Translations under genes and position numbers: made by a program
In this document: positions 10,727-64,000 of the stretch, in pieces
Layout: each line of letters begins with the position of its first letter
Position numbering within the stretch: position 1 is the first letter of the stretch
The notes under the pieces: model-generated
Database searches by the model: none
Seen by the model: only the letters and a program-made list of their open reading frames with translations
What the model was told of the DNA's origin: nothing
DNA from: Bathymodiolus japonicus methanotrophic gill symbiont
GTDB taxonomy: Bacteria > Pseudomonadota > Gammaproteobacteria > Methylococcales > Methylomonadaceae
Assembly: GCF_019721995.1 (NCBI RefSeq)
Contig: NZ_BLYC01000010.1
Span: 52,088-116,087, forward strand
DNA length: 64,000 nt
Direction: 5' to 3'

Positions 10727-12014
10727 TCAAGTCATAAGTACATAACCCAATAAATTTTTCATATCTATCCCAGTCAGCTCTTCAAATACCTCATAAGGTG
10801 TTTTGTAATTGAGACACTTTTTAGGGCGACTATTTAGCTTATCAACGGCTATAAAAACCTCTTTTATCGTAACATCAATCAACTCCATTACTTTAGGGAA
10901 ATACTGTCTTAATAAGCCATTAGCATTCTCATTTTGCCCTCTTTCCCAAGAGCTGTAGGGAGTCGAAAAATACGTATCACAACCTAGTGCTTCTGCTATT
11001 TTTTCATGCAGGGTAAACTCTTTCCCGTTATCAAAAGTAATTGTTTTAACAAAGCTTTTTATAGGATCAAGCATTAAAATAGTTGCGTCTAATACATATT
11101 GAGCCTTTTTCCCCGCTAAAGGGAAGGCCAACCGTAATTTAGAGACTCGCTCATCCAGCGTTACAATCGCCCCTTTGTGATTTTTCCCAATGATTGTATC
11201 TGCCTCCCAATCACCTATACGCTTACGGTTGTTGACCTCTTCAGGACGCTCATCTATATCGACTCTATTAGGGATTCCTGTCCTATTATGGGCTGACCCA
11301 TACCGCTTGCGATAGGTTTTGTTCTGATGCCGAAGATGCTTGTATAGTTCACCCCCTGCCTTTTTGTCCGCCAGAATATGCTGGTAGATTGTTTCATTCG
11401 GGGAGTCGCTATTTTTGCGAAAGCTTGTTTTGGGCATCCCAGCCCAAGCAAGCAGCAAAAACTTAACGCGACCACTTATGCCTCCGGCGGCCCCGATTCG
11501 TCCTCGTCACCTCGTCCCGACCCAACAAGGGGTCGGAACATAGGCTCCAAATGACTTGACGCCGTGTCGGATGGCCTTTTATTTTGTCTCCACCTTCGCT
11601 AACGCTCAGACTCCGACAAAACAACGGCCCTACGGCTATCGCGGACTAAAAATCTTCACTTCGCTAAAGCTCCGTTTCCAGGATTTTCAGCGGATGAAGA
11701 CTAATTATACCTTCTTGTTTTAACCGCCCTGCAATCTGCTCAGGACTCCAGTCATCCTCAATGCGAACATTAACAATGCCTTTTATTTCATCCGTTAATT
11801 TAACCTCTTTAGGCTTGTTTTTGTGTCGTTCTTGGGCAAAATCTTCTGCTTGTTTATGCCTGTAGCCTCTTTGACCTGTATTGCGTTTAATCTCGCGTGA
11901 AATATTGCTTTGGCTTCGTTCTAAGGCTTCTGCTATTTTATTCTGTGAAGTTCCCTTTTTTAATTCAATTTCTATATAATATCTTTCTTCAGGACATAGG
12001 TGTGTATAGCTCAT
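10727..12014 (-). pseudogene. IS30 family transposase, interrupted by element A
   Basis: The start MSYTHLCPEERYYIEIELKKGTSQ carries the N-terminal helix-turn-helix (NKIAEALERSQSNISREIKRN) that binds the IS30 ends. The C-terminal part has the DDE integrase core: IGDWEADTIIG, FDNGKEFTLHEKI and the late SSWERGQNENANGLLRQYFP with the catalytic Glu. The gene is cut between ISLH and HETIYQHI by the 295-bp element at 11398-11692. Removing exactly those bases gives 993 nt, an open frame of 330 residues with the conserved HETIY restored. As it stands it should be inactive. Confidence 0.92.
11398..11692 (+). mobile_element. short mobile element, family A, copy 1 (295 bp)
   Basis: Starts TCGGGGAGTCGC and ends GATTTTCAGCG. 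It sits in the IS30 transposase, antisense to it. The empty site reads GTTTCAT|GATGAAG with no base duplicated. Internally it holds several strong hairpins, e.g. TCGC/GCGA at the 5' end and CCGACCC/GGGTCGG near position 130. No gene. Confidence 0.93.
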
Positions 12015-12138
12015 TTGTAGCCTCTGTAAATTGTTTGGTAGCTGTTTACTTTACACCTATGTCTTGTCTTAATTCAACAGGTGTTAGTCTAGCCAATACT
12101 TGCAGAGGGTTATGCACTTATTATACGAATTCAGGCGA

Positions 12139-12433
12139 TCGGGGAGTCGCTATTTTTGCGAAAGCTTGTTTTGGGCATCCCAGCCCAAGCAAGCAGCAAA
12201 AACTTAACGCGACCACTTATGCCTCCGGCGGCCCCGATTCGTCCTCGTCACCTCGTCCCGACCCAACAAGGGGTCGGAACATAGGCTCCAAATGACTTGA
12301 CGCCGTGTCGGATGGCCTTTTATTTTGTCTCCACCTTCGCTAACGCTCAGACTCCGACAAAACAACGGCCCTACGGCTATCGCGGACTAAAAATCTTCAC
12401 TTCGCTAAAGCTCCGTTTCCAGGATTTTCAGCG
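12139..12433 (+). mobile_element. short mobile element, family A, copy 2 (295 bp)
   Basis: Same 295-bp unit with TCGGGGAG start and CAGCG end, antisense to the unrecognised minus-strand gene. Its left edge touches the CGA duplication of the IS30 copy. Removing both restores a continuous reading frame (TQQSNEYSDY), so no bases were duplicated or lost here. Confidence 0.9.
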
Positions 12434-12672
12434 ATTGCTGGGTGAATAATTCAAGTTTTTAAATAAGCCGGTTAATTGTGTAAAGTAATCGCGCACCGCA
12501 TCTTTATCATTAAAGTGATACTGCATATTTACCAGCTCTACAATACGATTAAGGCTTTCCTGTTGCCTTTCAAGTGGCACGGCGACATCAACCGCATCAA
12601 AAGTATAATGATCCCCAAAAACTAGACCAGCATTTAAGATAGAATCTTGCCCTCAAAACTGAGGATTAAGAA

Positions 12673-12954
12673 ATGACCATAAATCGGAAGAAGCATAGTA
12701 CGCAAACCAAAGTAAAAGTGGTATTAGACGTACTAAAAGGGGAAAAGACAAGAGCTGAAATTACCGCGAAATATGGTATTCATGCAACACAAATCAACAA
12801 TTGGAAAAAAGCTGTATTAGAGGTTATTCCTGAAGCATTCTCGACTAAAAGGAAACAACAGGATAATGACCAGCAGGCTTTAGTTGACGATCTGTACAAG
12901 CAGATAGGGCAACTGAAAGTAGAGAATGATTTTCTAAAAAAAAATCGAGGATGA
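12673..12954 (+). pseudogene. IS3 family OrfA remnant (orfB missing)
   Basis: A 93-residue OrfA-type protein: helix-turn-helix (TKVKVVLDVLKGEKTRAEITAKYGIHATQINNWKK) followed by a leucine-zipper-like coiled coil (DDLYKQIGQLKVENDFLKK), as in IS3/IS150 elements. In intact elements OrfA-OrfB fusion occurs by frameshifting at an A-run; here AAAAAAAAA is present near 12940, but no orfB with its DDE domain follows. The next sequence is a DUF692 remnant. The element is therefore a truncated leftover that also removed the 5' end of the gene to its left. Confidence 0.85.
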
Positions 12955-12978
12955 GATTCCCGTCATGAACAATCAACA

Positions 12979-13116
12979 TCTAGACGGAGCCGGATTAGGT
13001 CTGCGGCGGGCATTCCGGACTGTTTGGATTTTTTTGAAATTCCCCCGGAAAACTATCTTGGTCTGTGGGGCAAGCGAGCACAGGATTTTCGCTGGTTCAC
13101 CGAGCGCTATCCATAG
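12979..13116 (+). pseudogene. DUF692 family protein remnant
   Basis: Two adjacent frames together give GAGLGLRRAFRT and then LDFFEIPPENYLGLWGKRAQDFRWFTERYP before a stop at 13114-13116. The pattern (G-x-GLGLR ... FFEI-PENY) is the N-terminus of DUF692 proteins, TIM-barrel iron enzymes that modify cysteines in peptides such as methanobactin precursors (MbnB) and bufferins. A one-base frameshift and loss of the remaining ~220 residues show it is dead. Assignment rests on motif recall only. Confidence 0.6.
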
Positions 13117-13889
13117 AAGGTTTTCGTGTGGAGAGTCGAGATTAAATTCAGGGTTTAGGAAGGTTATGACAGGCCAAATTAAACGTTTTAGCGGGTGCGG
13201 TTGTGTATTTTATTAAGAATATTACAATCTAGAGCGTAACAGGTTATAATTGTAAAGCTATAAGCTGTAATTGCAGTTTATGCGCTGCTTGTTATTCAAG
13301 AGTCACTAATCAAGATGAATACAATAAGACCGTACACGGCATAATTCATCAATTGTTGCATTTACACAGGGTATCGCGTAATTCAATACCCGCCTCAATT
13401 GAATAGTTACTTTAAACGGAATAATATAGCAAAACAGATTTTGGGTTTTTACGCTCGACCCATGACGAGCGATACTCGACCTGATAAAGGCCGAACGATA
13501 AAAAAGACCGTGTTTTACGTTTGATTAATCCAGACTGTAATACCTGGAGTTTAAACACCAGTAGAGCGCCATAGTACTATAAATTCTCCTGGACATGCGT
13601 TTTCAGTAAAACAGTCAATGATGTGATTGAAAGCCTACATTTTAAGGTGTTATTGCTATGATGCAATAAACGCCGCCAGAAAATGATGTTATAAGCACCC
13701 AACTTTGGGTCTTGCTATATATTTTCATTGTGTAATCAGACATAGCTTTGCTATGCAATAACACGCTCTGAACTATAGTAGATCGTCTCTGCTGTGGTCA
13801 TTATTAGCTGCTTGTATTGCTAGTAACCCATACGAAAAAGTCTTTTTTATCTTCTGCACGGAACATCAGGATCAAGCAAGGATAAATTA
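13117..13889 (+). other. long gene-free leader upstream of rne
   Basis: About 770 bases without a convincing gene. RNase E genes usually have a long 5' untranslated region through which the enzyme regulates its own mRNA, and this stretch is the right length and place for that. No clear promoter, tRNA or mobile element end was found in it; several AT-rich stem-loops are possible. Confidence 0.4.
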
Positions 13890-16091
13890 ATGAAAAGAAT
13901 GCTTATCAACGCAACGCAGTCTGAAGAACTGCGTGTTGCATTGGTAGATGGTCAAAAACTGTATGATTTTGACATAGAACACCCTTCACACGAACAAAAA
14001 AAATCTAATATCTATAAAGGTATTATTACCCGTATTGAGCCAAGTCTGGAAGCAGCCTTTGTTAACTATGGTGTAGATAAACATGGTTTTTTACCTCTCA
14101 AAGAAGTTTCACCTAGCGCAGTGTACTCAGATGATTTAAATCTAAGTCGCGCAAAAATTAAAGAACAATTACGGGAAGGACAGGAAGTCATTGTCCAGAT
14201 TGAAAAGGAAGAGCGTGGCAATAAAGGTGCGGCGCTAACTACATATATTAGCCTTGCCGGGACTTACCTGGTGTTAATGCCTAATAACCCGAAGGCCGGC
14301 GGCATTTCCCGACGTATAGAAGGTGAAACACGCAATGAACTGCGTGACGCCATGGTAGGACTGGAAGTCCCTGAAAACATGGGGCTTATTGTACGTACCG
14401 CTGGTTGTGGAAAAAGCACTGAAGAATTGCAGTGGGACTTAAATTACTTGCTACAGTTATGGGAAGCGATAGACCGGTCATCTAAAGAGCAGAGTCAGCC
14501 ATTCCTTATTTTCCAGGAAAGCAATGTTATTATTCGTGCCCTACGTGACCATCTACGTGCCGATATAGATGAAATTCTAATTGATAAGGAATCGTCTTTT
14601 AAGTTAGTGCATAACTTCCTCAAACAGGTTATGCCGCATTATCTAAACAAAGCCAAGTTATACTGCGACGATGTGCCGCTGTTTAACCGCTATCAGATTG
14701 AAACCCAGATTGAGACCGCCTATAGCCGTGAAGTTGCGCTACCTTCGGGTGGTGAATTGGTAATTGATCATACTGAAGCACTGACCTCTATCGATATCAA
14801 CTCTGCACGCTCAACTAAAGGTAGTGATATTGAAGAAACTGCCTTAAATACCAACCTGGAAGCAGCAGATGAAATTGCGCGTCAACTAAGGCTGCGTGAT
14901 CTAGGAGGTCTATTCGTGATCGATTTTATTGATATGCTGGCCAATAAAAATCAGCGTGCAGTAGAAACCAGATTGCGTGATGCGCTAAAAATTGACCGTG
15001 CGCGTGTGCAAACCAGCCGTATTTCTCGCTTTGGTTTGTTGGAGATGTCGCGGCAGAGATTGCGCCCTTCCCTAGGTGACACAACCCAGCTTACCTGCCC
15101 CCGTTGTAATGGGCAGGGTGAGATTCGTAATGTTGAGTCTGTTGCTTTATCTGTCTTGCGTATTCTTGAAGAAGAAGCCATGAAAAACGGCACGGAAAAA
15201 GTCATTGCTCATTTACCAATAGAGTGTGCTACCTTCCTACTGAATGAAAAACGTCCTTCTATCGATCAAATTGAGTCGCGCTTAAACGTGCGAATTATAG
15301 TATTACCCAGTAAACATCTGGAAACACCGGCATATGATATAGAACGCATTAAATCTAAAGATGAGGATGGCTCTGAAGAAGTAGCTAGCTATACCAAAAT
15401 AAAAGCAGAGGATACTTCTTTGCCGGAATTTGCCAGGCAAGCAGCACCTCAAGCTGAGCAGGCTGCTATTAAAGAATTTTTGCCTGATGCACCCGCGCCT
15501 GTGCAGAACAAAAAAACCTCTGCAGGTTTAATAAATCGCTTTTGGACTAAACTCATAGGCGGTTCGAGTGCCCAGGAAGAATCGGCCGAAACCTCTGGCA
15601 AAGGTGAAAAACCGGCAAGAACCACAAGCGACAAACCGCAGAACAACCGTAGAAATCCTAATAACCGTCGCAACTCGAATAACAGAAATCGCAATAAAAA
15701 CGCAAATAACCGGGATCGCAATAAATCGCAAGCTAAGAAGCCTGCTGATACGCAAAAACCAGCCCCTGCTAAGAATAGCGAGTCTACAGCTGCAAGTAAT
15801 ACTGAAACATCCGAGTCTAAACCTAGAAATCAGAACCGCAAGCCTAACCCCCGAGGATATAACCGCAAGCCTAGAGTTGCAAAGCAAGGGATCGAAGAAA
15901 ATAACTCAGTTGACACGCCAGCAGATAGTGGCAAAGCGAATAACCAGCAGACGCAAAAAGAAACAAGTGTGAACATAGATAAAAACAGCGATAGTCAGTC
16001 TTATGCTGCAAATCATCAAAAAAATATTTCTGCCGCTAAGACGTCATCAGAGTCAAAACCTAATACTACTGTAACTAATACTGAAGACTAA
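13890..16091 (+). CDS. rne: ribonuclease E
   Basis: RNase E is the main mRNA-decay endonuclease, membrane-associated and the scaffold of the degradosome. The 733-residue protein has the S1 domain (about 37-120), a 5'-sensor/RNase H-like part, and the catalytic DNase I-like domain with [32 protein letters not shown]; the two Asp of this motif bind Mg. The zinc-link cysteines are in [13 protein letters not shown]. From about residue 560 the sequence becomes Asn/Arg/Lys-rich and disordered, typical of the RNA- and partner-binding tail, but it is shorter than the E. coli tail (1061 aa). Confidence 0.95.
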
Positions 16092-16143
16092 CGGCCAAGA
16101 AAAATTAATTGAAACTTTGTTTTTCCAAAACATAAATATAAAG

Positions 16144-16180
16144 AGCATAGACAGAGTCAGTTTTGTCTATGCTTTATTAT
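16144..16180 (+). terminator. rho-independent terminator after rne
   Basis: AGCATAGACA (from 16144) pairs perfectly with TGTCTATGCT (to 16173) around a 10-base loop, followed by TTATTATT. It lies about 50 bases after the rne stop and ahead of infA. Confidence 0.8.
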
Positions 16181-16248
16181 TACTGTCTTTAGCAAATAAA
16201 AACTGCTAGAATAAAAAATTTACTGATAAATTAGAATATAGAAAACAG

Positions 16249-16467
16249 ATGGCAAAAGAAGATCAAATAGAAATGGATGGTACGATTACCGAGACCCTCC
16301 CGAATACCATGTTTAGAGTTGAGTTAGAAAATGGTCATGTAATTACTGCGCATATCTCTGGTAAAATGCGTAAGCATTACATACGCATCCTGACCGGTGA
16401 TAAAGTTAAGGTAGAAATGACACCTTACGACTTAACAAAAGGTCGCATAACATTTCGTATGCGCTAA
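16249..16467 (+). CDS. infA: translation initiation factor IF-1
   Basis: A 72-residue protein made of one OB fold. IF-1 blocks the ribosomal A site during initiation. [30 protein letters not shown], then [31 protein letters not shown], is almost the textbook family sequence. It stands alone between the rne terminator and the oppositely oriented clpA, a neighbourhood (infA near clpA/clpS) conserved across gammaproteobacteria. Confidence 0.98.
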
Positions 16468-16487: not shown

Positions 16488-16494
16488 TTCAATA

Positions 16495-27532: not shown

Positions 27533-27910
27533 TAGGCGGTTAGCGCCACTAACCCCAACATATTGGATCATCATTAACTGAAGTTTCCCAATTATTGAGT
27601 AGCTGAAATACACAATGCTGGTGTATCGAGGTTTATTTTAGGTGGTTTTGCCATGTTTATAGCAAACCCCTACTTAATTCCCCTTAGGCAATAGCATTTG
27701 AAACGAATGAAAAGACTATTTTTTTCATATAGTTGTAGCATAGTTTCAATTTTACCATAAATAATTATTGGGAAACTTCAGATCATTAATTGAGCCACTC
27801 AATAAGAAAGATGGAATTAAGCCAATGAATACAAGTTACTACGCAACTTTTCTTCACAGGACATTGCAAGCAATAATCCACATCTTGCTTTTGGTGGCGC
27901 TAACCGCCTA
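27533..27910. mobile_element. MITE family E carrying MITE D copy 2
   Basis: Inverted ends TAGGCGGTTAGCGCCAC at 27533 and its complement ending at 27910. The unit is about 166 bp once the nested MITE D and its duplication are removed. TA at both outer edges suggests a TA target. No gene. It stands upstream of pyrG. Confidence 0.8.
27578..27781. mobile_element. MITE family D, copy 2 (204 bp)
   Basis: Same length and ends as the copy at 3637, flanked by an 8-bp duplication ATCATTAA. It inserted into MITE E, so it is the younger of the two. Confidence 0.93.
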
Positions 27911-30123: not shown

Positions 30124-30383
30124 CGCTGTCAGCCCAGGACGGGCTGATAGTCTCCAGAAGGCGCAGGGAAATTTGCCAATCCGAAGTGCGCGATAGCGCG
30201 CGAGGGAGGCTAAAATTTTATCCCGAATAGCCGTAGAGCCATTTGTGGTAGCCATGACTGAGCTGCTTTGTGCTCAGTCTGTGGCGGACGCAGGGCGGCT
30301 GGAGCATCTCCTATTCGCTGCGTAGGTGAACGAATTACGGCGATAGGAGTCCCGGAATTTCGTGAGGTAGCATGGCGCGCCTG
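30124..30383 (-). mobile_element. short mobile element, family B, copy 1 (260 bp)
   Basis: Read on the minus strand it starts CAGGCGCGCCATGC and ends GGGCTGACAGCG. It splits the IS66 gene between GAA and TGG codons; deletion of exactly 260 bases restores EAEKWKVQYRELL. No duplication. The element runs in the same direction as its host gene. Confidence 0.92.
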
Positions 30384-31367: not shown

Positions 31368-31658
31368 CAGGCGCGCCATGCTACCTCACAACATTCTGGG
31401 ACTCCTGTCACCAACATTCATTCGCCTACGCAGCGAATGGGAGATGCCCTGGTCGCCCTGCGTCCGTCTCAACTACTCAACTACGCACAAAACCCTGCTC
31501 AGTTAAGTCTACCTCAAATGGCTGGACGGCTATTCGGAATGCAATTCTTGCCTCCCTCGCGCGCTACTAGCGCACTTCGGATCAGCGAATTGCCCTGTCG
31601 CCTACCAGAGACTAAAAATCATCACTCCGCTTAGGCTCCGTTTCCCTGATTTTAAGCG
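31368..31658 (+). mobile_element. short mobile element, family C, copy 1 (291 bp, divergent)
   Basis: Starts CAGGCGCGCCATGCTACC like family B and ends with the A-type module CTAAAAATCAT ... TGATTTTAAGCG. It differs from the other two C copies by scattered changes and 11 extra bases. Right after it comes ACGCTGAGTAGTTAC, the end of MITE family G, so it may have inserted into or beside such an element. Confidence 0.85.
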
Positions 31659-34074: not shown

Positions 34075-34334
34075 CAGGCGCGCCATGCTACCTCACGAAA
34101 TTCCGGGACTCCTGTCGCCGTAATTCGTTCACCTACGCAGCGAATAGGAGATGCTCCAGCCGCCCTGCGTCCGCCACAGACTGAGCACAAAGCAGCTCAG
34201 TCATGGCTACCTCAAATGGCTCTACGGCTATTCGGGATAAAATTTTAGCCTCCCTCGCGCGCTATCGCGCACTTCGGATTGGCAAATTTCCCTGCGCCTT
34301 CTGGAGACTATCAGCCCGTCCGGGGCTGACAGCG
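34075..34334 (+). mobile_element. short mobile element, family B, copy 2 (260 bp)
   Basis: CAGGCGCGCC start, GGCTGACAGCG end. Inserted antisense in the STAS/SEC14-like gene; the joined codons read DPQIKVFIDG, with no duplication or loss. Confidence 0.93.
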
Positions 34335-34403: not shown

Positions 34404-34698
34404 TTGGGGAGTCGCTATTTTTGCGAAAGCTTGTTTTGGGCATCCCAGCCCAAGCAAGCAGCAAAAACTTAACGCGACCACTTATGCCTCCGGCGGCCCC
34501 GATTCGTCCTCGTCACCTCGTCCCGACCCAACAAGGGGTCGGAACATAGGCTCCAAATGACTTGACGCCGTGTCGGATGGCCTTTTATTTTGTCTCCACC
34601 TTCGCTAACGCTCAGACTCCGACAAAACAACGGCCCTACGGCTATCGCGGACTAAAAATCTTCACTTCGCTAAAGCTCCGTTTCCAGGATTTTCAGCG
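34404..34698 (+). mobile_element. short mobile element, family A, copy 3 (295 bp)
   Basis: TTGGGGAGTCGC start, GATTTTCAGCG end. Inserted antisense, 69 bases from element B in the same small gene; the joined codons read TGTLSHEDY. Confidence 0.93.
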
Positions 34699-35863: not shown

Positions 35864-36158
35864 TTGGGGAGTCGCTATTTTTGCGAAAGCTTGTTTTGGG
35901 CATCCCAGCCCAAGCAAGCAGCAAAAACTTAACGCGACCACTTATGCCTCCGGCGGCCCCGATTCGTCCTCGTCACCTCGTCCCGACCCAACAAGGGGTC
36001 GGAACATAGGCTCCAAATGACTTGACGCCGTGTCGGATGGCCTTTTATTTTGTCTCCACCTTCGCTAACGCTCAGACTCCGACAAAACAACGGCCCTACG
36101 GCTATCGCGGACTAAAAATCTTCACTTCGCTAAAGCTCCGTTTCCAGGATTTTCAGCG
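35864..36158 (+). mobile_element. short mobile element, family A, copy 4 (295 bp)
   Basis: TTGGGGAG start, CAGCG end. Empty site in IS4 copy 2 reads GTCAAA|AGGGAT across the joint, showing precise insertion without duplication. Confidence 0.95.
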
Positions 36159-36790: not shown

Positions 36791-37085
36791 TTGGGGAGTC
36801 GCTATTTTTGCGAAAGCTTGTTTTGGGCATCCCAGCCCAAGCAAGCAGCAAAAACTTAACGCGACCACTTATGCCTCCGGCGGCCCCGATTCGTCCTCGT
36901 CACCTCGTCCCGACCCAACAAGGGGTCGGAACATAGGCTCCAAATGACTTGACGCCGTGTCGGATGGCCTTTTATTTTGTCTCCACCTTCGCTAACGCTC
37001 AGACTCCGACAAAATAACGGCCCTACGGCTATCGCGGACTAAAAATCATCACTTCGCTTAGGCTCCGTTTCCCTGATTTTCAGCG
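36791..37085 (+). mobile_element. short mobile element, family A, copy 5 (295 bp)
   Basis: TTGGGGAG start; the 3' stem variant is AAAATCA/TGATTTT. Empty site in IS4 copy 2 reads CCCACA|AAGGATG, again without duplication. Confidence 0.95.
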
Positions 37086-37630
37086 AAGGATGACGCTCTG
37101 CTAACAGGGCACGTTCCATACTTTCATTGCAGTGTTGGTGAATATGTTCAGAGAGTGGTAGGTCTTTAAGCATGGGTGATGTCCGTTTATGAGGTGATTA
37201 AAACGGAAATTTTTAGAAAAATCTTTCCGGCAAATGCAAGCTTTATTTGAAATTATTTGTTGTTCTTTTACGGTGCCTACAGAGTGTCTATTTGTTGTTA
37301 TAAGTGATTAAAATCAAAAAGATGGAAATATTCGAGTGGTGCTACCTTCAGGTAGGTTATAGGCTGCTTTGTTTAGGTACTTCTTCTTTCAATGGGAACA
37401 CTGATGAAAAAAATAGTCTTTTCATTCGTTTCAAATGCTATTGCCTAAGGGGAATTAAGTAGGGGTTTGCTATAAACATGGCAAAACCACCTAAAATAAA
37501 CCTCGATACACCAGCATTGTGTATTTCAGCTACTCAATAATTGGGAAACTTCAGATATTGAATTACTATTCAATTTCATTACGAGCAGACGGTATTTCTT
37601 TTTTTAGCAATGCTAATGTCTGTATTCTAA

Positions 37631-40705: not shown

Positions 40706-41000
40706 TTGGGGAGTCGCTACTTTTGCGAAAGCTTGTTTTGGGCATCCCAGCCCAAGCAAGCAGCAAAAACTTAACGCGACCACTTATGCCTCCGGCGGCC
40801 CCGATTCGTCCTCGTCACCTCGTCCCGACCCAACAAGGGGTCGGAACATAGGCTCCAAATGACTTGACGCCGTGTCGGATGGCCTTTTATTTTGTCTCCA
40901 CCTTCGCTAACGCTCAGACTCCGACAAAATAACGGCCCTACGGCTATCGCGGACTAAAAATCATCACTTCGCTTAGGCTCCGTTTCCCTGATTTTCAGCG
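40706..41000 (+). mobile_element. short mobile element, family A, copy 6 (295 bp)
   Basis: TTGGGGAG start, 3' variant like copy 5. Sense orientation in the IS630 gene. IS630 copy 1 supplies the empty site; no duplication. Confidence 0.95.
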
Positions 41001-41100: not shown

Positions 41101-41395
41101 TCGGGGAGTCGCTATTTTTGCGAAAGCTTGTTTTGGGCATCCCAGCCCAAGCAAGCAGCAAAAACTTAACGCGACCACTTATGCCTCCGGCGGCCCCGAT
41201 TCGTCCTCGTCACCTCGTCCCGACCCAACAAGGGGTCGGAACATAGGCTCCAAATGACTTGACGCCGTGTCGGATGGCCTTTTATTTTGTCTCCACCTTC
41301 GCTAACGCTCAGACTCCGACAAAACAACGGCCCTACGGCTATCGCGGACTAAAAATCTTCACTTCGCTTAGGCTACGTTTCCCTGATTTTCAGCG
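41101..41395 (+). mobile_element. short mobile element, family A, copy 7 (295 bp)
   Basis: TCGGGGAG start. Its 3' module mixes features of the two A variants (AAAATCTT arm with TGATTTT arm), as if recombined. Only 100 bases from copy 6. Exact empty site in IS630 copy 1. Confidence 0.95.
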
Positions 41396-42330: not shown

Positions 42331-42590
42331 CAGGCGCGCCATGCTACCTCACGAAATTCCGGGACTCCTGTCGCCGTAATTCGTTCACCTACGCAGCGAA
42401 TAGGAGATGCTCCAGCCGCCCTGCGTCCGCCACAGACTGAGCACAAAGCAGCTCAGTCATGGCTACCACAAATGGCTCTACGGCTATTCGGGATAAAATT
42501 TTAGCCTCCCTCGCGCGCTATCGCGCACTTCGGATTGGCAAATTTCCCTGCGCCTTCTGGAGACTATCAGCCCGTCCGGGGCTGACAGCG
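42331..42590 (+). mobile_element. short mobile element, family B, copy 3 (260 bp)
   Basis: Sits in the IS630 gene but replaces 39 bases of it (compare 28420-29511), so insertion or later events deleted target DNA here, unlike the other resolved copies. Confidence 0.92.
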
Positions 42591-42732: not shown

Positions 42733-43012
42733 CAGGCGCGCCATGCTACCTCACGAAATTCCGGGACTCCTGTCGCCATAATTCGTTCACCTACGCAGCG
42801 GATGGGAGATGCCCTGAACGCCCTGCGTCCGCAACGACTACGCACAAAAGCCGCTTCGTCATTACTACCTCACTGGCTGGACGGCTATTCGGAATGCAAT
42901 TCTTGCTCCTCTCGCGTGCTGCTAGCACACGTCGAATCAGCGAATTGCCCTGTCGCCTATCAGGGACTAAAAATCACCACTTCCCTAAGCTCCGTTTCCA
43001 TGATTTTCAGCG
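42733..43012 (+). mobile_element. short mobile element, family C, copy 2 (280 bp)
   Basis: CAGGCGCGCC start as in B; TGATTTTCAGCG end as in A. It marks the join between an IS4 fragment and the PEP-synthase-like gene (GACGTA|ATCGAC once both are removed), so it is associated with a deletion. Confidence 0.9.
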
Positions 43013-43056
43013 TACGTCCTCCGTCATCACCGGCGTATCATAAACTTCTTTTATAT

Positions 43057-43260
43057 CTGAAGTTTCCCAATAATTATTTATGGTAAAATTGAAACTATGC
43101 TACAACTATATGAAAAAAATAGTCTTTTCATTCGTTTCAAATGCTATTGCCTAAGGGGAATTAAGTAGGGGTTTGCTATAAACATGGCAAAACCACCTAA
43201 AATAAACCTCGATACACCAGCATTGTGTATTTCAGCTACTCAATAATTGGGAAACTTCAG
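43057..43260. mobile_element. MITE family D, copy 4 (204 bp)
   Basis: Identical length and ends to the other copies; flanks share CTTTTATAT. It ends the local reading frame of the PEP-synthase-like gene after HSNIK by supplying a stop. Confidence 0.92.
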
Positions 43261-43573
43261 CTTTTATATTTGAGTGCCTGATAAATTGCGTTTCCCAGGT
43301 AAATCCACTAAAGGGTGCTGCAAGTCGGGTAATAAGGAATTCATCGGACACCGGACTAATCAAGCCAGCCGATATCTCTATCGGCTCTGGATTAGTGACC
43401 GATAATTCACCATACTGCGCATTTACATAAAACCCTTTCCAGCCCCGATTATAGATATTTTTGCTAATCGCAACACCATTCACCTGTTCATCGCCATAAT
43501 TAGGGTGTATCAATACTCCCATATAGGTTTTCAAATGCTCAACGCGATGCAATCTGCGTTCTTCAAAGGCTCT

Positions 43574-45325: not shown

Positions 45326-45585
45326 CAGGCGCGCCATGCTACCTCACGAAATTCCGGGACTCCTGTCGCCGTAATTCGTTCACCTACGCAGCGAATAGGA
45401 GATGCTCCAGCCGCCCTGCGTCCGCCACAGACTGAGCACAAAGCAGCTCAGTCATGGCTACCACAAATGGCTCTACGGCTATTCGGGATAAAATTTTAGC
45501 CTCCCTCGCGCGCTATCGCGCACTTCGGATTGGCAAATTTCCCTGCGCCTTCTGGAGACTATCAGCCCGTCCGTGGCTGACAGCG
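45326..45585 (+). mobile_element. short mobile element, family B, copy 4 (260 bp)
   Basis: Left edge lies in the IS4 transposase (CAGATTT|), right edge in unrelated sequence (GATGAAGAG), so it sits at a rearrangement joint. Confidence 0.9.
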
Positions 45586-45591: not shown

Positions 45592-46204
45592 GAGTGATCA
45601 AGCCGTGGCCTGATTCTGAGTCTTTTGTTTGACCATCGCTGAAAATCCTGGAAACGGAGCTTTAGCGAAGTGAAGATTTTTAGTCCGCGATAGCCGTAGG
45701 GCCGTTGTTTTGTCGGAGTCTGAGCGTTAGCGAAGGTGGAGACAAAATAAAAGGCCATCCGACACGGCGTCAAGTCATTTGGAGCCTATGTTCCGACCCC
45801 TTGTTGGGTCGGGACGAGGTGACGAGGACGAATCGGGGCCGCCGGAGGCATAAGTGGTCGCGTTAAGTTTTTGCTGCTTGCTTGGGCTGGGATGCCCAAA
45901 ACAAGCTTTCGCAAAAATAGCGACTCCCCGATGCCTTCTCCTTCACCCAGAGCAAATAGCCCGCATTGAAAGCAAACTACCTGCGTATACCGTAGGAAGC
46001 TTACAGCGCAAGTCTCAAATGGATGTACTGCTTGAGTTCATCACGTCATTGCTAGAGTTTCCAGATCCTGGTGATAAGCTGAAAGAGTTAGGTGAATTAA
46101 TAAAGGATGTGTTTCAACTGATGTCATCAGGAAAACATATGATTGGCAGATATTTAGGGCGCTTAGAGCCAACACCATCATTAAAGTATTGTTCTGCTGG
46201 GTGA
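45592..46204 (+). pseudogene. unrecognised ORF split by element A copy 8
   Basis: Removing 45637-45931 joins SRGLILSLLFDH to CLLLHPEQIARIESKLPAYT in frame. It continues through KSQMDVLLEFITSLLEFPDPGDKLKELGELIKDVFQL to a stop at 46204, about 105 residues in all. It looks soluble and helical. The true start is unclear because a TGA lies just before SSRGL. No family recognised; it is carried inside IS4 copy 2. Confidence 0.45.
45637..45931 (-). mobile_element. short mobile element, family A, copy 8 (295 bp)
   Basis: The only A copy on the minus strand in this window. Joined flank GACCAT|TGCCTT keeps the host frame; no duplication. Confidence 0.92.
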
Positions 46205-47117: not shown

Positions 47118-47377
47118 CAGGCGCGCCATGCTACCTCACGAAATTCCGGGACTCCTGTCGCCGTAATTCGTTCACCTACGCAGCGAATAGGAGATGCTCC
47201 AGCCGCCCTGCGTCCGCCACAGACTGAGCACAAAGCAGCTCAGTCATGGCTACCACAAATGGCTCTACGGCTATTCGGGATAAAATTTTAGCCTCCCTCG
47301 CGCGCTATCGCGCACTTCGGATTGGCAAATTTCCCTGCGCCTTCTGGAGACTATCAGCCCGTCCGGGGCTGACAGCG
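47118..47377 (+). mobile_element. short mobile element, family B, copy 5 (260 bp)
   Basis: Inserted sense in the IS4 transposase. IS4 copy 1 gives the empty site GCGCCTG|ACTGCAATG; no duplication. Confidence 0.95.
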
Positions 47378-51815: not shown

Positions 51816-52421
51816 TCATTTTTTTGTCTTGGTCAGTAAATGGTCCATCTTATGTGCTTTAGTCTGCAGGTAGGCACGATTATCACAGTTCGACTCGATT
51901 TCAATTGCTATCCGCCCATCGACCTTTACCCCAAGGGCTTGTAGTTGCTCTATCTTATTAGGGTTATTCGTAATCAGCTCAATTGTTTTAATCTGCAAGT
52001 TGTCCAGCATTAACGCAGCAATTGTATACTCGCGCTCATCAGGTTTGTGCCCCAGGTGCAGATTAGCATCTACCGTATCCATGCCCTCATCCTGCAAATT
52101 ATAGGCCTGCAGTTTTTTCAGTAAACCTATCCCCCGCCCTTCCTGACGCAGATAAATCAACACACCAAAACCATGCTCACTGATCAATTGCAGTGCCTTA
52201 TCCAGCTGGTCACCACAATCACAACGTCTTGAGCCTAACACATCACCGGTAAAGCACTCTGAATGAATTCGTACTGGCACACGCGACTTATGCATCACAT
52301 CACCAAACACAAAAGCAACATGCTCCTTATCATCGATGGTGTTAGTAAAGTAATGTAGTACGAATTCACCATATTCTGTTGGAATACGTGTTTGTACTAA
52401 ATTATTAATTGCAGTTGTCAA
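51816..52421 (-). CDS. ribA: GTP cyclohydrolase II
   Basis: RibA opens GTP for riboflavin synthesis. The 201-residue stand-alone enzyme has the zinc ligands in SECFTGDVLGSRRCDCGDQL, the catalytic YLRQEGRGIGLLKKLQAYNLQDEG and TNNPNKIEQLQALGV. It is not fused to RibB. It lies 130 bases downstream of fhcC on the same strand; whether it shares the fhc transcript is unclear. Confidence 0.97.
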   Translation of the reverse strand: MTTAINNLVQTRIPTEYGEFVLHYFTNTIDDKEHVAFVFGDVMHKSRVPVRIHSECFTGDVLGSRRCDCGDQLDKALQLISEHGFGVLIYLRQEGRGIGLLKKLQAYNLQDEGMDTVDANLHLGHKPDEREYTIAALMLDNLQIKTIELITNNPNKIEQLQALGVKVDGRIAIEIESNCDNRAYLQTKAHKMDHLLTKTKK

Positions 52422-58088: not shown

Positions 58089-58511
58089 TCAAAATGGGTT
58101 ACAAATCCTCAACTGCTGGTAGATATTCAGTCCATGTTGCATGTCCTCAGAATAAAGTATTTTACAGTGACTGCGTAAAGCACAGGCAACAATCAAACTA
58201 TCCCAATAAGAAAAATGATAGTCCTCTCTTATACTTGCAGCTTGTAAAACATCTTCTTGTGTTTGTGCTAACACAGAATAAGTCACGACAAAATCACTTA
58301 AAAAATGTTTAAGATAAGTATTATCCTTATTTGCTTTTCGCATCAAATTAACACAAACCTCATTAACAACTTGCGTACTGACAATAATATCATTTGCTTC
58401 CACAATACAAGATTTAGCTTTTAATCTTTTTCCATGATCGTTTTGACTTTGAACCAGTGCATAAAGCCAGATATTACTATCAATAAAGACTATATCTGGC
58501 ATAAATGTCAT
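58089..58511 (-). CDS. PIN-domain toxin, VapC-like
   Basis: A 140-residue PIN domain: IVFIDSNIWLYAL has the first acidic residue, VSTQVVNEVCVNLM the second, and YHFSYWDSLIVACALRS the third and fourth, the metal-binding ribonuclease site of VapC toxins. It overlaps the antitoxin gene by 32 bases; translation may begin at ATG 58511 or at ATG 58502. The target RNA is unknown. Confidence 0.88.
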   Translation of the reverse strand: MTFMPDIVFIDSNIWLYALVQSQNDHGKRLKAKSCIVEANDIIVSTQVVNEVCVNLMRKANKDNTYLKHFLSDFVVTYSVLAQTQEDVLQAASIREDYHFSYWDSLIVACALRSHCKILYSEDMQHGLNIYQQLRICNPF

Positions 58512-58716
58512 CCCTGTTCAAAGGAGTAAAGTCTTCAGTTATTATAGGTTCATCAAAATAAGATTTAATAAAATTTTGTCTATGAATATCTTTTTCTTTA
58601 TATGAGTCGACTAACTTACATAAAGCTAGATTAACAACCTCTTTTTTACTATTTGCGCCCGTCAATGCAAGAGCTTGGGAAACTAAGCTATCATCTAGAA
58701 CAATATTGGTACGCAT
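58480..58716 (-). CDS. VapB-like antitoxin
   Basis: A 78-residue protein starting MRTNIVLDDSLVSQALALTGANSKKEVVNLALCKLV, a ribbon-helix-helix DNA-binding fold of the type paired with PIN toxins (VapB/DUF2191-like), followed by a charged tail (FDEPIITEDFTPLNRDDIYAR) that should wrap the toxin. It precedes and overlaps the toxin gene, the normal antitoxin-first order. A short palindromic AT-rich sequence with ATACTTTATACAC upstream (about 58735-58750) could be its operator. Confidence 0.86.
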   Translation of the reverse strand: MRTNIVLDDSLVSQALALTGANSKKEVVNLALCKLVDSYKEKDIHRQNFIKSYFDEPIITEDFTPLNRDDIYARYSLY

Positions 58717-58791
58717 TTCAAAATCTCATTGGTGTATACTTTATACACATGATATCACACCAGCCAGCTTTTAAAGCCCACTATCCTTCAA

Positions 58792-59526
58792 CTATAATAG
58801 AAACTCGGATAAGCCAATCACCTTAATCCCTTTTGTTCTGGCATCCGTTCTATCCTGTTCGGTATTATATCCCCAATCAACCAGTTGCAACTCTACCGCA
58901 CTTAATTGTTTATTCTCTAAAACACCCAATAAGGTGGGTAGTCTGTCTTCAATCAAGCGAATCGTATGCGCACCATGTTTCTCTATTAACTCCAGCAGTA
59001 TATCCTGTTTGCCCATTTTTCGATCTAGTCCATATATATCAACCGGGAGGTCAACCTGATTTGCCTGTAATATTTGCTCGACAAAGCGCTCCTGTTTCGT
59101 GGTGACGATATACCAGTTCTTGCCACTTAATTTTTGCAGTTTTTCGTCCACACCCTCAAATAAAGGGTTCATTGTTATCCATTCATCCCGCGCATAATGA
59201 ATCCATTGGTCTCGCGTTCCACCAAATATTTTCTTTAACAGACTACTATCCGCGCCTAGCTCCTTTATGAAGCTGCTTATATTAGCTTGAATGCTCTCTA
59301 CGGGCTCCCCTTGTTGCAATAAGCGCATCAAGATAATTGCCTCATAGCCCGTTTCCAGACTTGGACGCAATAGGCGAAAGCTCTCGATATGAGACTGATC
59401 CGGAACAGTGTTTGCCATATCAGGCCAGACAAAAGTAGCCGCTTTCCAGCCAGTAATTGCGGTTTCAACTGCACTATCACAGATCACACCGTCAAAATCC
59501 AGAGCATATATTGGGGCTTGCTTCAT
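58792..59526 (-). CDS. HAD-superfamily hydrolase
   Basis: A 244-residue haloacid-dehalogenase-type phosphatase. Motif I is IYALDFDGVICDSAVE (nucleophile Asp plus Asp), motif II YIVTTKQERF, motif III the Lys in GLDRKMGKQDIL, and motif IV IRLIEDRLPTLLG with its acidic pair. A helical cap lies between about residues 20 and 125. Substrate cannot be told. It follows the DegT aminotransferase by seven bases on the same strand, hinting at a role in the same sugar pathway. Confidence 0.85.
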   Translation of the reverse strand: MKQAPIYALDFDGVICDSAVETAITGWKAATFVWPDMANTVPDQSHIESFRLLRPSLETGYEAIILMRLLQQGEPVESIQANISSFIKELGADSSLLKKIFGGTRDQWIHYARDEWITMNPLFEGVDEKLQKLSGKNWYIVTTKQERFVEQILQANQVDLPVDIYGLDRKMGKQDILLELIEKHGAHTIRLIEDRLPTLLGVLENKQLSAVELQLVDWGYNTEQDRTDARTKGIKVIGLSEFLL

Positions 59527-59533
59527 CTAATCA

Positions 59534-60631
59534 CTACCCTGCAAATACACTACGAATCACAGCAACAATCTCTTTAACCGACTCATCGCTTAACTCGGAA
59601 CATATGGGCAAAGACATACAGCGCGCGGCAATTGCTTCGGTCGCTGGCAGACTCAAACCCGAGCAATCATCCTTAAATACATTTTGCTGGTGCAAAGGCA
59701 CAGGATAAAAAACCGAACAGGCAATTTGCTTAGCTTGCAGGGCTTCAAGAATTTCATCGCGGCGATCCGATAGTAGAGTATATTGATGATAAACATGCAC
59801 ACCTATGCCGTCTTCATACGGTGTTTCAATGGGCAAATCAGCCATTAATTCAGAATATAAATGCGCCACATGTCGGCGGCTGGCATTGTAACGATCAATA
59901 CGCTTTAATTTCGCGCGTAAAACCACAGCTTGCATTTCATCTAATCGACTATTAAAACCTACTACATCATGGTAATAACGTACTTTTGAACCATGGTTAC
60001 GTAATTGCCTGACCATTTCTGCCGTTGTATCTGAATTGGTGCCGACTAAACCGCCATCGCCAAAAGCACCCAGATTTTTACTCGGAAAAAAACTATAGCC
60101 CGCTGCATTGCCTATGCTACCCGTTTGTTTGCCATCGATTGGTGCACCAAATGACTGCGCACAATCTTCAATCAACTTTAGATTATGCTTATCACACACA
60201 GCTTGAATAGCCGCCATATCCACTGGCTGGCCAAATAAATGCACAGGCATAACCGCCGTGGTTTTATCGGTAATTGCCGCTTCAATCGTAGCCGCTGTAA
60301 TATTAAAGGTCTTAGGGTCTACATCCACAAAAACCGGCTTCGCCCCCACATAACGAATTGCTTCGGCAGTCGCAATAAAGGTAAATGCGGTGGTAATCAC
60401 CTCATCGCCCTCTCCGATTCCTTCTGCGAGCAAGGCCAGGTGCAATGCATCGGTACCCGAAGCAACGCCAATCGCATGTTTAACCCCTAGATACTCAGCC
60501 GCTTCTTTTTCAAAAGCTTGAACATTCGGCCCTAGAATAAAAAAGCAATTTTCTATTGTTTCTGCCAGACCCTGCTCAACTTCTTGCTTTATTTCAGCAT
60601 ACTGAGATTTCAGGTTTACCATTGGGATCAT
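59534..60631 (-). CDS. DegT/DnrJ/EryC1/StrS family aminotransferase
   Basis: A PLP-dependent nucleotide-sugar aminotransferase (365 aa). The start MIPMVNLKSQYAEIKQEVEQGL, the GVASGTDALHLAL loop, PVHLFGQPVDMAAI, the EDCAQSFGAPIDGKQTG stretch and the Schiff-base lysine in SFFPSKNLGAFGDGG are all standard. With the Gfo/Idh dehydrogenase at 62912-63844 it could make a 3-amino sugar such as UDP-GlcNAc3N for lipid A (GnnB with GnnA) or an O-antigen sugar; the two genes are now separated by IS110 debris. Sugar identity is inference. Confidence 0.9.
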   Translation of the reverse strand: MIPMVNLKSQYAEIKQEVEQGLAETIENCFFILGPNVQAFEKEAAEYLGVKHAIGVASGTDALHLALLAEGIGEGDEVITTAFTFIATAEAIRYVGAKPVFVDVDPKTFNITAATIEAAITDKTTAVMPVHLFGQPVDMAAIQAVCDKHNLKLIEDCAQSFGAPIDGKQTGSIGNAAGYSFFPSKNLGAFGDGGLVGTNSDTTAEMVRQLRNHGSKVRYYHDVVGFNSRLDEMQAVVLRAKLKRIDRYNASRRHVAHLYSELMADLPIETPYEDGIGVHVYHQYTLLSDRRDEILEALQAKQIACSVFYPVPLHQQNVFKDDCSGLSLPATEAIAARCMSLPICSELSDESVKEIVAVIRSVFAG

Positions 60632-61177
60632 AATTCACTACCTTTTAAAATAATACTGTTTGTGTTTGTGTTTGTGACTATTAAAGCAACATCATTAAAA
60701 TATGATACTAGCGGACTAAAGTCCGCTCTACAGCCAAGGGCTGATTTCAGCCTATATTCTGTTTTACCATGAAGGTATCGAACTCATCTTTATTCAGCAT
60801 ATTTGAAAAGGCCTTTGTCCATTCTCTTCATTAACTTCATGGTAATAAATATAAGCATACCTCTCTACAACCCATATATGGACTCCTCGTTTATTGCAAG
60901 CCAAGTTTTACATAATTGATGCTAATAACAGTGAACAAGATTGCAGCCATATATTCGGTCTCTAACAGAGGCTTTTTTGCCTCAGGACTCCTGATGAATC
61001 TATTCGCATACTTTTTGACCCTACCAGCCTAACGGTCTCGCAATGGACTCTCTGGGTTGCAAGGGTTCTGTAAAAGTATCGGTCTGACCTGTTGTTGTCA
61101 TCAATATTGGTTAACTTGCCTCCGCAATCTTGGTTACTCGGTTATCTCAGGGTTATCCACGCTTTGTCCACAGACGA
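60632..61177. other. gene-free region left of the IS110 remnant
   Basis: About 550 bases with no convincing gene. It holds a perfect palindrome AGCGGACT/AGTCCGCT (60710-60727, same motif as 8227-8242) and GC-richer sequence from about 60940 to 61177 that differs from its surroundings and may be remnant IS DNA. No RNA gene recognised. Confidence 0.4.
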
Positions 61178-61472
61178 TCGGGGAGTCGCTATTTTTGCGA
61201 AAGCTTGTTTTGGGCATCCCAGCCCAAGCAAGCAGCAAAAACTTAACGCGACCACTTATGCCTCCGGCGGCCCCGATTCGTCCTCGTCACCTCGTCCCGA
61301 CCCAACAAGGGGTCGGAACATAGGCTCCAAATGACTTGACGCCGTGTCGGATGGCCTTTTATTTTGTCTCCACCTTCGCTAACGCTCAGACTCCGAAAAA
61401 ACAACGGCCCTACGGCTATCGCGGACTAAAAATCTTCACTTCGCTAAAGCTCCGTTTCCAGGATTTTCAGCG
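61178..61472 (+). mobile_element. short mobile element, family A, copy 9 (295 bp)
   Basis: TCGGGGAG start and CAGCG end, between non-coding flanks CAGACGA and AGAGCCC, just beyond the 3' side of the IS110 gene. No empty site is available for comparison. Confidence 0.9.
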
Positions 61473-61533
61473 AGAGCCCTCCTAGCTCGCAGTCGGTGGG
61501 CAAAGGGTGGGTAACCCTGCTTATGCACTCTAA

Positions 61534-62831
61534 CTATGTCAGAGCTGTATCATATTCTTTATCCTGACTCGCCATCGCCCACAGTATTCGGGCATTTTTA
61601 TTGGCCAGCGCAACGGCGGCTTTATTAAATCCACGCCGCTCAATGAGTGCTTGTAGCCATAGGCTTAATTTATCTTTTTTACCACTACAGTGCTTTAACA
61701 CCGATCGTGCTCCATGAATTAACATCGTACGAATATAGCGGTTACCTCGCTTACTAATTCCTAAATAAACCTGATTATCACCACTGCTATGTTGTCTCGG
61801 AACAATCCCTAAGCTGGCTGCATAATCTCGGCTACTCTGATAGCTTTTACCTGTCCCTATGTCTGAGGCAATGTGGTGGCTGTTATTGCCCCAATACCTG
61901 GCACATCAAGAAAACGCTGGCTTAACTGATTGCTATTACATAGCCAGCTAATACGTCAGTCCTGTTGTTTAATCTCTTCATCTAGTGCAACTAGTTTTTC
62001 ATATTGCTCAGCAAACATTTCTCGACTTAAATCAGTCAAATCATTGTCGCTATCTTCTAAAATCAACGGTAATTCTACTCTTACTTTCTTTATACCTTCG
62101 CTGAAAATCATGGAAACGGAGCTTAGCGAAGTGGTGATTTTTAGCCCCTGATAGGCGACAGGGCAATTCGCTGATTCGACGTGTGCTAGCAGCACGCGAG
62201 AGGAGCAAGAATTGCATTCCGAATAGCCGTCCAGCCAGTGAGGTAGTAATGACGAAGCGGCTTTTGTGCGTAGTCGTTGCGGACGCAGGGCGTTCAGGGC
62301 ATCTCCCATCCGCTGCGTAGGTGAACGAATTATGGCGACAGGAGTCCCAGAATTTCGTGAGGTAGCATGGCGCGCCTGTAGGAATAACAATGCCTCTTTC
62401 ACTGAGTAGCCCTCGCACTTGATTAACCAGCGCAGTACGTTTGCCAACAAGGCCTTCACGTATTCTATGAACAAGTTGAATGTCTTGCTGTTCAATCGTT
62501 TTTATCGACACTGTGCGCTTATTTGGACGGGTAACCGCATCAAATATAGCAGCGGCATCATTAAAGTCATTTTTGTTCCCCACCACAAAACCCTTTACAT
62601 AACGGGCATTAAGCAAAATGACTTCATGCCCTTGTTTAGTTAACTCTCTTGCCCAGTGATGAGCTCCGCCACAGGCTTCTATTCCAATTAAGCTCACTGG
62701 ATAATTTGCAAAAAATATTAAAAGCTCAGCTCGTTTTAGCTTTTTCTTAACAGGTTTTGATTTTTTTCATCAAATGTATACATGTGAAAAATATTTTTTG
62801 CTATATCCAATCCAATTACGCTATTATTCAT
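61534..62831 (-). pseudogene. IS110-family transposase remnant, with element C copy 3
   Basis: Start MNNSVIGLDIAKNIFHMYTFDEKN at 62831 carries the DEDD-type first Asp. A frameshift in an A-run follows within 20 codons; then LIGIEACGGAHHWARELTKQGHEVILLNARYVKGFV, KNDFNDAAAIFDAV and RTALVNQVRGLLSERGIVIP. Element C (62099-62378) splits IVIP|KGIKKV exactly. A TGA after EEIKQQD and another frameshift near ATTLP break the rest, which still shows the DUF/transposase_20 part VPGIGAITATTLP and SSRDYAASLGIVPRQHSSGD plus KRGNRYIRTMLIHGARS. Clearly inactive. IS110 elements also insert without inverted ends, which makes the neighbourhood with the small elements of interest. Confidence 0.9.
62099..62378 (-). 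mobile_element. short mobile element, family C, copy 3 (280 bp)
   Basis: Minus-strand CAGGCGCGCC start, TGATTTTCAGCG end, in the sense direction of the IS110 gene. Deletion of exactly 280 bases restores IVIPKGIKKVRVELP; no duplication. Confidence 0.93.
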
Positions 62832-62911
62832 GTCGGGCTCCTCTTTGCTCCGTTATTACTCTTAGGTGCATTATGACACTGTTGGTGGGAGAGGAGTCCA
62901 TATCATCAGCC

Positions 62912-63844
62912 CTATTGCAGCAAATTGGTAATCTCAATCGCTGTAGCTAAAGCACGTCGGCCTGCTTCGCCTGATACATCAGGCGTGTTACCCGACTGGA
63001 TGCATGCAATAAAGTGCTTGATTTCTTCTAACAGGGCATCGCCATTTTCAAACACGGATTTGTCCGTTTCGATTTTAGGCACACCAGGAAACATTTCGCC
63101 TTCACCAGCATAGTGCTTGGTTAAAACACGGTTTTGAAAATCGATAGAAATATATGAATTGGGGCGGAACATACGCATTTTACGCTCCATCTTCATGCTA
63201 ATGCGGCTCGCGGTAACATTCGCTACACAGCCATTTTTAAAGGTCAGCCGCGCATTGGCGATATCGGTTCCTTTGGTTAAAACTTCCGTACCACTGGCTT
63301 CAATATGATCTACTTCAGAATCAACAATCGCCAGAATAATATCAATATCATGAATCATCAAATCCAGCACCACACTGACATCATTGGCACGCGGATTAAA
63401 CGGCGATAAACGATGTGACTCGATAAATAATGGCTTATCCTCCAAATCGCCCAGCCCCATAACCGCAGGATTAAAGCGCTCTAAATGTCCGACCTGCAAT
63501 ACAATGTTTTTTTGTTTCGCTATCTCGATAAGTTCATCTGCTTCTGCTACGGTAACCGTAATCGGCTTTTCAACTAAAACATGCGCACCGGCCTGAAGAA
63601 AGTCTCTGGAGACCTGATGGTGCAATGTGGTCGGCACAACAATGCTGACTGCATCGACATGACCCAGTAAAGACTGATAATCTGTTAAAGCTTCGGCTCC
63701 ATGCTTTGTAGCAACGTCCTTAGCCGCTTGCTCATTAATATCAACAACAGCAACTAATTCACAATCCGGCAGTGATGCGTATTTTTCCGCATGAAACTTG
63801 CCCAGGTAACCTGTCCCAATAACAGCACATTTAAGTTTACTCAT
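62912..63844 (-). CDS. Gfo/Idh/MocA family oxidoreductase
   Basis: A 310-residue NAD-dependent sugar dehydrogenase. N-terminal Rossmann motif CAVIGTGYLGKFHAEKYA, then LVAVVDINEQ, the family's HVLVEKPITVTVAEAD with the catalytic Lys, and the substrate-binding DVSVVLDLMIHDIDIILA (Asp-x3-His). This resembles the dehydrogenases found beside lpxA/lpxB in several gammaproteobacteria and GnnA-type enzymes. A link with the DegT aminotransferase at 59534-60631 is plausible. It starts near the right edge of the IS110 remnant in reverse orientation, so the IS lies downstream and does not remove its promoter. Confidence 0.9.
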   Translation of the reverse strand: MSKLKCAVIGTGYLGKFHAEKYASLPDCELVAVVDINEQAAKDVATKHGAEALTDYQSLLGHVDAVSIVVPTTLHHQVSRDFLQAGAHVLVEKPITVTVAEADELIEIAKQKNIVLQVGHLERFNPAVMGLGDLEDKPLFIESHRLSPFNPRANDVSVVLDLMIHDIDIILAIVDSEVDHIEASGTEVLTKGTDIANARLTFKNGCVANVTASRISMKMERKMRMFRPNSYISIDFQNRVLTKHYAGEGEMFPGVPKIETDKSVFENGDALLEEIKHFIACIQSGNTPDVSGEAGRRALATAIEITNLLQ

Positions 63845-63988
63845 AGCTTTTCATTATCGATTAAAAATTTTGCCTATTGTATATGATTTAAAGCTTACAC
63901 CAAAACACTTACTATCCGGCTAATCAGAATGAGCCCCTGTCCAGCACAAGCGCAGCCTCAACCCTATCTCAGTTACATAGCCAAGAGT

Positions 63989-64000
63989 CAGGCGCGCCAT
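63989..64000 (+). mobile_element. start of a family B or C element, cut by window end
   Basis: The last 12 bases, CAGGCGCGCCAT, equal the first 12 of every B and C copy. Which family it is cannot be told. Confidence 0.75.

Follow-up and report, generated by a model that had tools for sequence, protein, structure and literature searches.

Gene-free repeats of 260-310 bases in a methanotrophic gill symbiont: insertion without duplication after 5'-CNNN and a possible role of host topoisomerase I

The 64,000-nucleotide stretch analysed here (the window) covers positions 52,088 to 116,087 of contig NZ_BLYC01000010.1 from the Bathymodiolus japonicus methanotrophic gill symbiont. It contains 17 full-length copies of short dispersed elements of three types: nine A copies of 295 bp, five B copies of 260 bp, and three C copies, two of 280 bp and one divergent copy of 291 bp. 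This recount matched an earlier sequence-only reading of the window, which had proposed one superfamily of ultra-short mobile elements with neither inverted ends nor a gene. No terminal inverted repeats were seen in A, B or C, and the longest stop-to-stop frames were 60, 57 and 93 codons, respectively, with no conserved gene in any type. The overall size range is about 260-310 bases, and all types are rich in hairpins. The length of A includes bases 1 and 2 (TC or TT, before GGGG), because the empty sites of A lack exactly these two. Position 1 was T in 88% of the A copies, and position 2 was C in 77% and T in 20%; A copies elsewhere were mostly 97-100% identical. The left end of C is of the B type and its right end of the A type. 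This suggested that the ends have been swapped as modules.

The elements are abundant in the symbiont's own genome, a draft of 4.97 Mb. In 464 kb of it (the window and 20 further stretches), 152 element matches occupied 39,211 bp, or 8.5%, and another 400 kb gave 168 matches. At uniform density, the whole genome would hold roughly 1,800 copies. Searches with A, B and C, in which 40 of 1023 (A), 867 (B) and 1307 (C) first-look candidates were scored, returned at least 44 A, 43 B and 42 C matches. An assembly artefact, which the sequence-only reading had named as a possible refutation, is unlikely because the flanks differ widely and other genomes carry copies. One 100-bp derivative (locus L178, 7260-7359) retains, after an internal deletion, positions 1-45 and 217-280 of C and with them its two ends; it might serve to define the minimal mobile unit.

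Insertion precision was determined by joining the 60-base flanks of 267 full-length copies and searching the sampled own-genome DNA for the empty sites. A spanning match was obtained for 128 junctions and none for the other 139. A match was scored as clean at 95% identity or more, if it was gap-free (B and C) or lacked exactly two bases at the junction (A). Clean empty sites without duplication made up 110 of the 128 (A 47/54, B 41/47, C 22/27), and the remaining 18 were gapped or of lower identity. Target site duplications and terminal inverted repeats were both absent at the tested junctions. Where a B copy was nested in a C copy (L175), the C bases at the junction were present once. The exact insertion first described for the window thus extended beyond it.

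In the right flank, the fourth base was G in 263 of the 267 copies (A 104/105, B 75/76, C 84/86) and in all 17 copies of the window. On the reverse strand, this places the cut directly after 5'-CNNN, with C at position -4. Among the 110 junctions scored as clean, all but one (109) had this C. The sequence-only reading had found no common flanking motif and had called for a comparison of flanks with empty sites; that comparison upheld the absence of duplication and revealed one near-invariant target base, so that the statement on the motif has to be withdrawn.

Other positions showed weaker preferences. T was favoured (120/267) and C avoided (11) at -5, and T was favoured (149/267) and G avoided (6) at -1. 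Compared with the bases beside C in the same DNA, these preferences gave chi-square p values of 2e-18 and 9e-27, respectively. Position -3 was free, position -2 was mostly A (107) or T (88), and the first base after the cut was T in 114 and A in 74 copies.

The rule was kept in 147 of 150 copies from the further 400 kb, which may overlap the set of 267. In genomes of other genera it was kept in 49 of 50 tail matches (58 in total, of which eight were dropped as the end pattern was absent). A second genome, G010, sampled in 20 stretches, kept it in 19 of 19 full-length copies, some of which may be among the 50 tail matches.

The left end of the element itself starts with NNNG: TCGG or TTGG in A, CAGG in B and C, and CAAG in 18 of the 19 G010 copies (CAAA in one). 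NNNG was also found at the left end of 22 of 24 divergent types, for which the boundary was set by alignment only. On the reverse strand, the far end therefore also reads CNNN^ (^ marks the cut) in A, B, C and the G010 type, where empty sites, or else numerous copies with different flanks, define the end. From the C at -4 in the right flank and the NNNG at the left end, it follows that the cuts at both ends obey one rule, 5'-CNNN^ on the reverse strand. Among 72 B copies at least 99.5% identical to one another, 27 different NNN were present at the target. This argues against a target read by a guide in the element.

The sequence-only reading was right that neither end is an inverted repeat of the other. 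It was incomplete in that each end has its own subterminal hairpin, which is maintained by compensating base changes. The 24 divergent elements aligned over a left, a middle, a near-position-200 and a right hairpin, the last ending 5 bases from the cut; heads of the B and C types, which the head profile misses, lie outside this alignment. In A, the hairpins are 5 and 7 bases from the cuts at the two ends, and in B and C the left-end hairpin is further inward. More than one Watson-Crick type occurred in 27 of 47 pairs, and 974 of 1110 cells were paired. In 500 shuffles the paired cells reached at most 835 and the extra pair types at most 25, compared with 35 observed; visual selection of the helices in a single sequence gives them an advantage in slid controls.

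Single-sequence RNA folding gave z values of -2.8 for A, -3.1 for B and +0.8 for C, so that folding support is absent from C alone. Mismatches in the stems were 35 G-T and 31 A-C overall, distributed unevenly among helices (24 versus 3 in the parts of H1, 6 versus 25 in H3). These counts favour neither strand as RNA. The features of the window are listed in Table 1.

Table 1. Elements A, B and C in the window, with the two terminal hairpins of the A reference copy
Feature	Position	Strand	Remarks
Element A, copy 1	11398..11692	+	295 bp; right flank GATG; first bases TC from empty sites
Element A, copy 2, reference	12139..12433	+	Right flank ATTG
Left-end hairpin H1 of A copy 2	12146..12213	+	GTCG/CGAC outer stem, TTTTTGC/GCAAAAA inner stem, tip hairpin; between-genome covariation
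Right-end hairpin H6 of A copy 2	12390..12428	+	AAAATC/GATTTT; 5 bases (CAGCG) to cut
Element B	30124..30383	-	Right flank ATGG
Element C, divergent	31368..31658	+	291 bp; right flank TACG
Element B	34075..34334	+	Right flank TTTG
Element A	34404..34698	+	Right flank TAAG
Element A	35864..36158	+	Right flank AGGG; empty site in own-genome sample
Element A	36791..37085	+	Right flank AAGG; empty site in own-genome sample
Element A	40706..41000	+	Right flank GCTG; empty site in own-genome sample
Element A	41101..41395	+	Right flank TTGG; empty site in own-genome sample
Element B, reference	42331..42590	+	Right flank ATTG
Element C, reference	42733..43012	+	B-type left, A-type right end; right flank TACG
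Element B	45326..45585	+	Right flank GATG
Element A	45637..45931	-	Right flank ATGG
Element B	47118..47377	+	Right flank ACTG
Element A	61178..61472	+	Right flank AGAG
Element C	62099..62378	-	Right flank AAGG; empty site in own-genome sample

At 3629-3855, 27571-27796, 37404-37564 and 43055-43270, the window also has copies of another dispersed repeat, about 220 bp long. It has inverted ends (CTGAAGTTTCCCAATTATTG... / ...AATTATTGGGAAACTTCAG) and looks like a conventional miniature inverted-repeat transposable element (MITE). According to empty-site matches, copies of this repeat were apparently the insertion targets of some A, B and C copies.

The orientation of the elements was compared with GC skew. 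In the 464 kb, the strand on which the elements are named was the C-rich strand in 113 of 143 elements (113:30; p 1.6e-12). A second own-genome sample from ten other contigs gave 102 of 159 when skew was taken by stretch (102:57; p 4e-4), and orientation followed skew in 215 of 302 elements of the two samples pooled. Within most contigs of the second sample orientation was coherent, and two contigs, C3 and C11, were clearly opposed to the skew rule. Insertions inside open frames were on the same strand as the gene in 29 cases and on the opposite strand in 25. The strand bias is strong in this genome and may not be general. Assuming the usual G-rich leading strand, it places the reverse strand, with CNNN 5' of the element, in the lagging-strand template.

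Related elements were found across methanotroph genera. Among 151 genomes of the family, 109 had A-like and 18 had B-like matches, and 134 had a match to Y1_Tnp, the domain of Y1 transposases. Of the 17 genomes without a Y1 match, 14 were 2.8 Mb or smaller, and the eight of the 17 that had A-like elements held four matches at most each. Two genomes were rich in copies: G010 (two contigs) had 38 element matches, the sampled copies being mostly 98-100% identical, and G126 (one contig) had 23 with nearly equal scores. The best Y1 matches in these two had E values of 1e-12 and 9.9e-13; we read them as RAYT-like. As only weak Y1 matches occur in G010 and G126, an ordinary IS200 TnpA is unlikely there, and a RAYT helper is conceivable. 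Four plasmid records, all from methanotroph genera, had element matches, and phage records had none. Matches also occurred in records labelled as a thiotrophic symbiont (L203), a Rhodospirillales metagenome-assembled genome (L206) and a Cycloclasticus symbiont (L235), reflecting either horizontal transfer or binning contamination.

A helper gene was not visible in the window, as the sequence-only reading had remarked. Head and tail searches followed up its proposal to look for a larger, recombinase-encoding relative with the same ends. The searches were not exhaustive, and in the sampled loci no head and tail on the same strand were found with a gene between them; C copies, with a head that escapes the head profile, made up many of the unpaired tails, and some matches lay at contig ends. 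The genome has a single match to type IA topoisomerases, topA, as one open frame of 782 codons.

The target rule points toward this host enzyme. Topo-Seq of Escherichia coli topoisomerase I is reported to give the core TCNTTA/T, in which a C is strictly required and the cut falls four bases downstream of it (PMC9352719; PMC9960139). Cutting is preferably within a TA step, and the authors deem the requirement for C at -4 likely typical of the whole protein family (PMC9352719). The element sites agree with this rule at -5, -4 and -1 and in the free -3. From this agreement, we tentatively take topoisomerase I as the simplest candidate for reading CNNN at the two ends, and we put the probability that it is the mover, in a single-stranded 'peel and paste' reaction, at roughly 0.45.

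In such a reaction, the strand exposed in the lagging-strand template would fold. Topoisomerase I would cleave at both CNNN sites and stay bound to the 5' ends through a phosphotyrosine bond. The 3' ends would then be exchanged, which would seal the donor gap and free a single-stranded circle with the junction CNNN|CGCTG. Run backwards at a new CNNN, the exchange would insert the circle, and replication would make it double-stranded. The element would carry no transposase because the cell already supplies the enzyme. A, B and C might then represent, somewhat more speculatively, a class of transposable elements with neither their own nor a dedicated transposase, in which folded single-stranded DNA hijacks the housekeeping type IA topoisomerase at two CNNN sites, is excised as a circle and reinserts at any CNNN.

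Several observations weigh against a role of topoisomerase I. After the cut T exceeds A, where the E. coli enzyme prefers A (the TA dinucleotide), and at -2 A exceeds T, unlike its core. The element's own end (CCGA, CCTG) fits the secondary preferences poorly, with no T at -1, and 4 of the 267 junctions have no C at -4. The orientation bias weakened in the second own sample to 94 of 159 (94:65, p 0.03) when skew was summed by contig. On other own contigs it was not significant, whether read from 3-kb local skew (43/78; 43:35) or summed by contig (47/78; 47:31), nor was it significant in G010 (14:10) or in G126 (13:10, with skew read from 20 evenly spaced stretches). The family occurs mainly in Methylococcales although TopA is universal, and this suggests a factor specific to that lineage. 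Most genomes, G010 and G126 included, have weak Y1 matches that are RAYT-like or fragments, and A-like elements occurred in 101 of the 134 genomes with a Y1 match versus 8 of the 17 without (p=0.02). No earlier case of an element moved by a type IA topoisomerase turned up in a literature search confined to titles and the starts of abstracts, and weak to that extent.

This association with Y1, which is mild, bears on the main rival. It takes the elements as non-autonomous relatives of IS200/IS605 or of REP (repetitive extragenic palindromic) sequences, moved in trans by a Y1 HUH transposase, either TnpA or RAYT, whose CNNN target would be unusually relaxed. It would account for the shared anatomy: no target duplication or terminal inverted repeats, subterminal hairpins, a motif 5' of one end and the apparent lagging-strand orientation in the own genome. 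Y1 candidates are at hand in most genomes of the family, and the symbiont itself has a RAYT-like Y1 open frame of 225 codons (L098, contig C5:60689-61018), with GGGGACGCTACCC upstream and GGGTAACGTCCCC downstream. On the reverse strand of B and C, GTAG, a foot sequence of the RAYT type, occurs close to the left end; the terminal hairpins of A showed no GT[AG]G at their foot.

The transposases of IS200/IS605 direct insertion to the 3' side of one specific tetra- or pentanucleotide, which a guide carried in the element selects (PMC7290912, PMC6006769). The 27 different NNN used by near-identical B elements are unlike such a guide-read target. The own IS200-like copies have ends unrelated to those of A, B and C, and were rejected as the helper for this difference. 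No A, B or C copy lies within 3.3 kb around the RAYT-like gene, and the copy-rich G010 and G126 have only the weak Y1 matches. We consider this rival rather unlikely. In the own genome, an IS200-like family (L091-L112) has tnpA mostly decayed or interrupted, and several of its members have A, B or C elements inside or adjacent.

Two further rivals are improbable, the second slightly more so. One invokes another dedicated recombinase: an integron-type tyrosine recombinase, IS110 with its bridge RNA, an IS91-like HUH enzyme or a group II-type reverse transcriptase. All of these are able to insert without duplication, and integron and group II systems also act on single strands. Their typical marks would be a GTT/GNT core, a fixed GTTC/CTTG target or a dinucleotide shared by the two junctions. 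In a comparison confined to the flanks, the genes themselves not being searched for, none of the three was seen, and Rfam gave no intron match.

The other rival is a guide-RNA carrier like HEARO/IscB, with the structured 260-310 nt as the RNA, the left flank as the guide and the right NNNG as the target-adjacent motif (TAM), which a one-flank motif at a fixed distance does resemble. Omega RNAs are similar in length and have several conserved hairpins. With E values allowed up to 10, Rfam searches of A, B and C copies gave no HEARO match, and the few families listed were eukaryotic or viral and stayed below threshold. There is no overall wobble excess on either strand, and the NNNG rule holds at the element's own left end too. 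IscB was rejected as a helper, no match to RRXRR (IscB/IsrB) being found in the own genome in a search without a positive control. Group I and II introns, riboswitches and HEARO were likewise rejected, with no Rfam match at gathering in the window and none at E up to 10 over the A, B and C copies.

If topoisomerase I does move these elements, a universal housekeeping enzyme can serve as a transposase, and repeats that have precise ends and no gene could, with no dedicated helper, spread in any bacterium. Short repeats that have been puzzling elsewhere would be worth rechecking for CNNN at both ends. Strand exchange by topoisomerase I in nature would be visible as sequence change on a genome scale, and the reaction might provide a simple tool for inserting single-stranded DNA. 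Were a relaxed HUH enzyme the mover, a target rule of one base would still be unlike the guide-read targets of the cited papers (PMC7290912, PMC6006769).

No earlier description of the A, B and C repeats was recognised in the literature search, again from titles and abstract starts and with few subscription journals. Compared with known systems, their anatomy would work like a single-strand peel-and-paste element. They resemble non-autonomous IS200/IS605 elements in lacking duplications and terminal inverted repeats, and in their subterminal hairpins, target 5' of one end and, in the own genome, apparent lagging-strand orientation. They differ in that only one of four target bases is fixed and their own end is under the same one-base rule. 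We keep them out of IS200/IS605 because the fixed, guide-read target is lacking and no matching TnpA was found in a non-exhaustive search.

REP sequences and REPINs with RAYT are also abundant, short, gene-free hairpin DNA. A, B and C are about ten times longer and insert precisely into genes and other elements, and no copy stands beside the one own RAYT-like gene examined. MITEs share the small size, the lack of genes and the high copy number; those of DDE transposons differ in having terminal inverted repeats and target site duplications. The omega RNAs of HEARO/IscB are near 300 nt, structured and dispersed, with a motif in one flank. The motif of A, B and C differs from theirs, and no Rfam match or IscB-type protein was found for them. 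Integron cassettes have a GTT core at their junctions, which the junction bases of A, B and C do not show. Bacterial TopA is known for transient cleavage in relaxation, not for transposition, and prefers A rather than T after the cut; its cleavage sites resemble those of A, B and C in CNNN^, with C at -4 and T favoured at -5 and -1.

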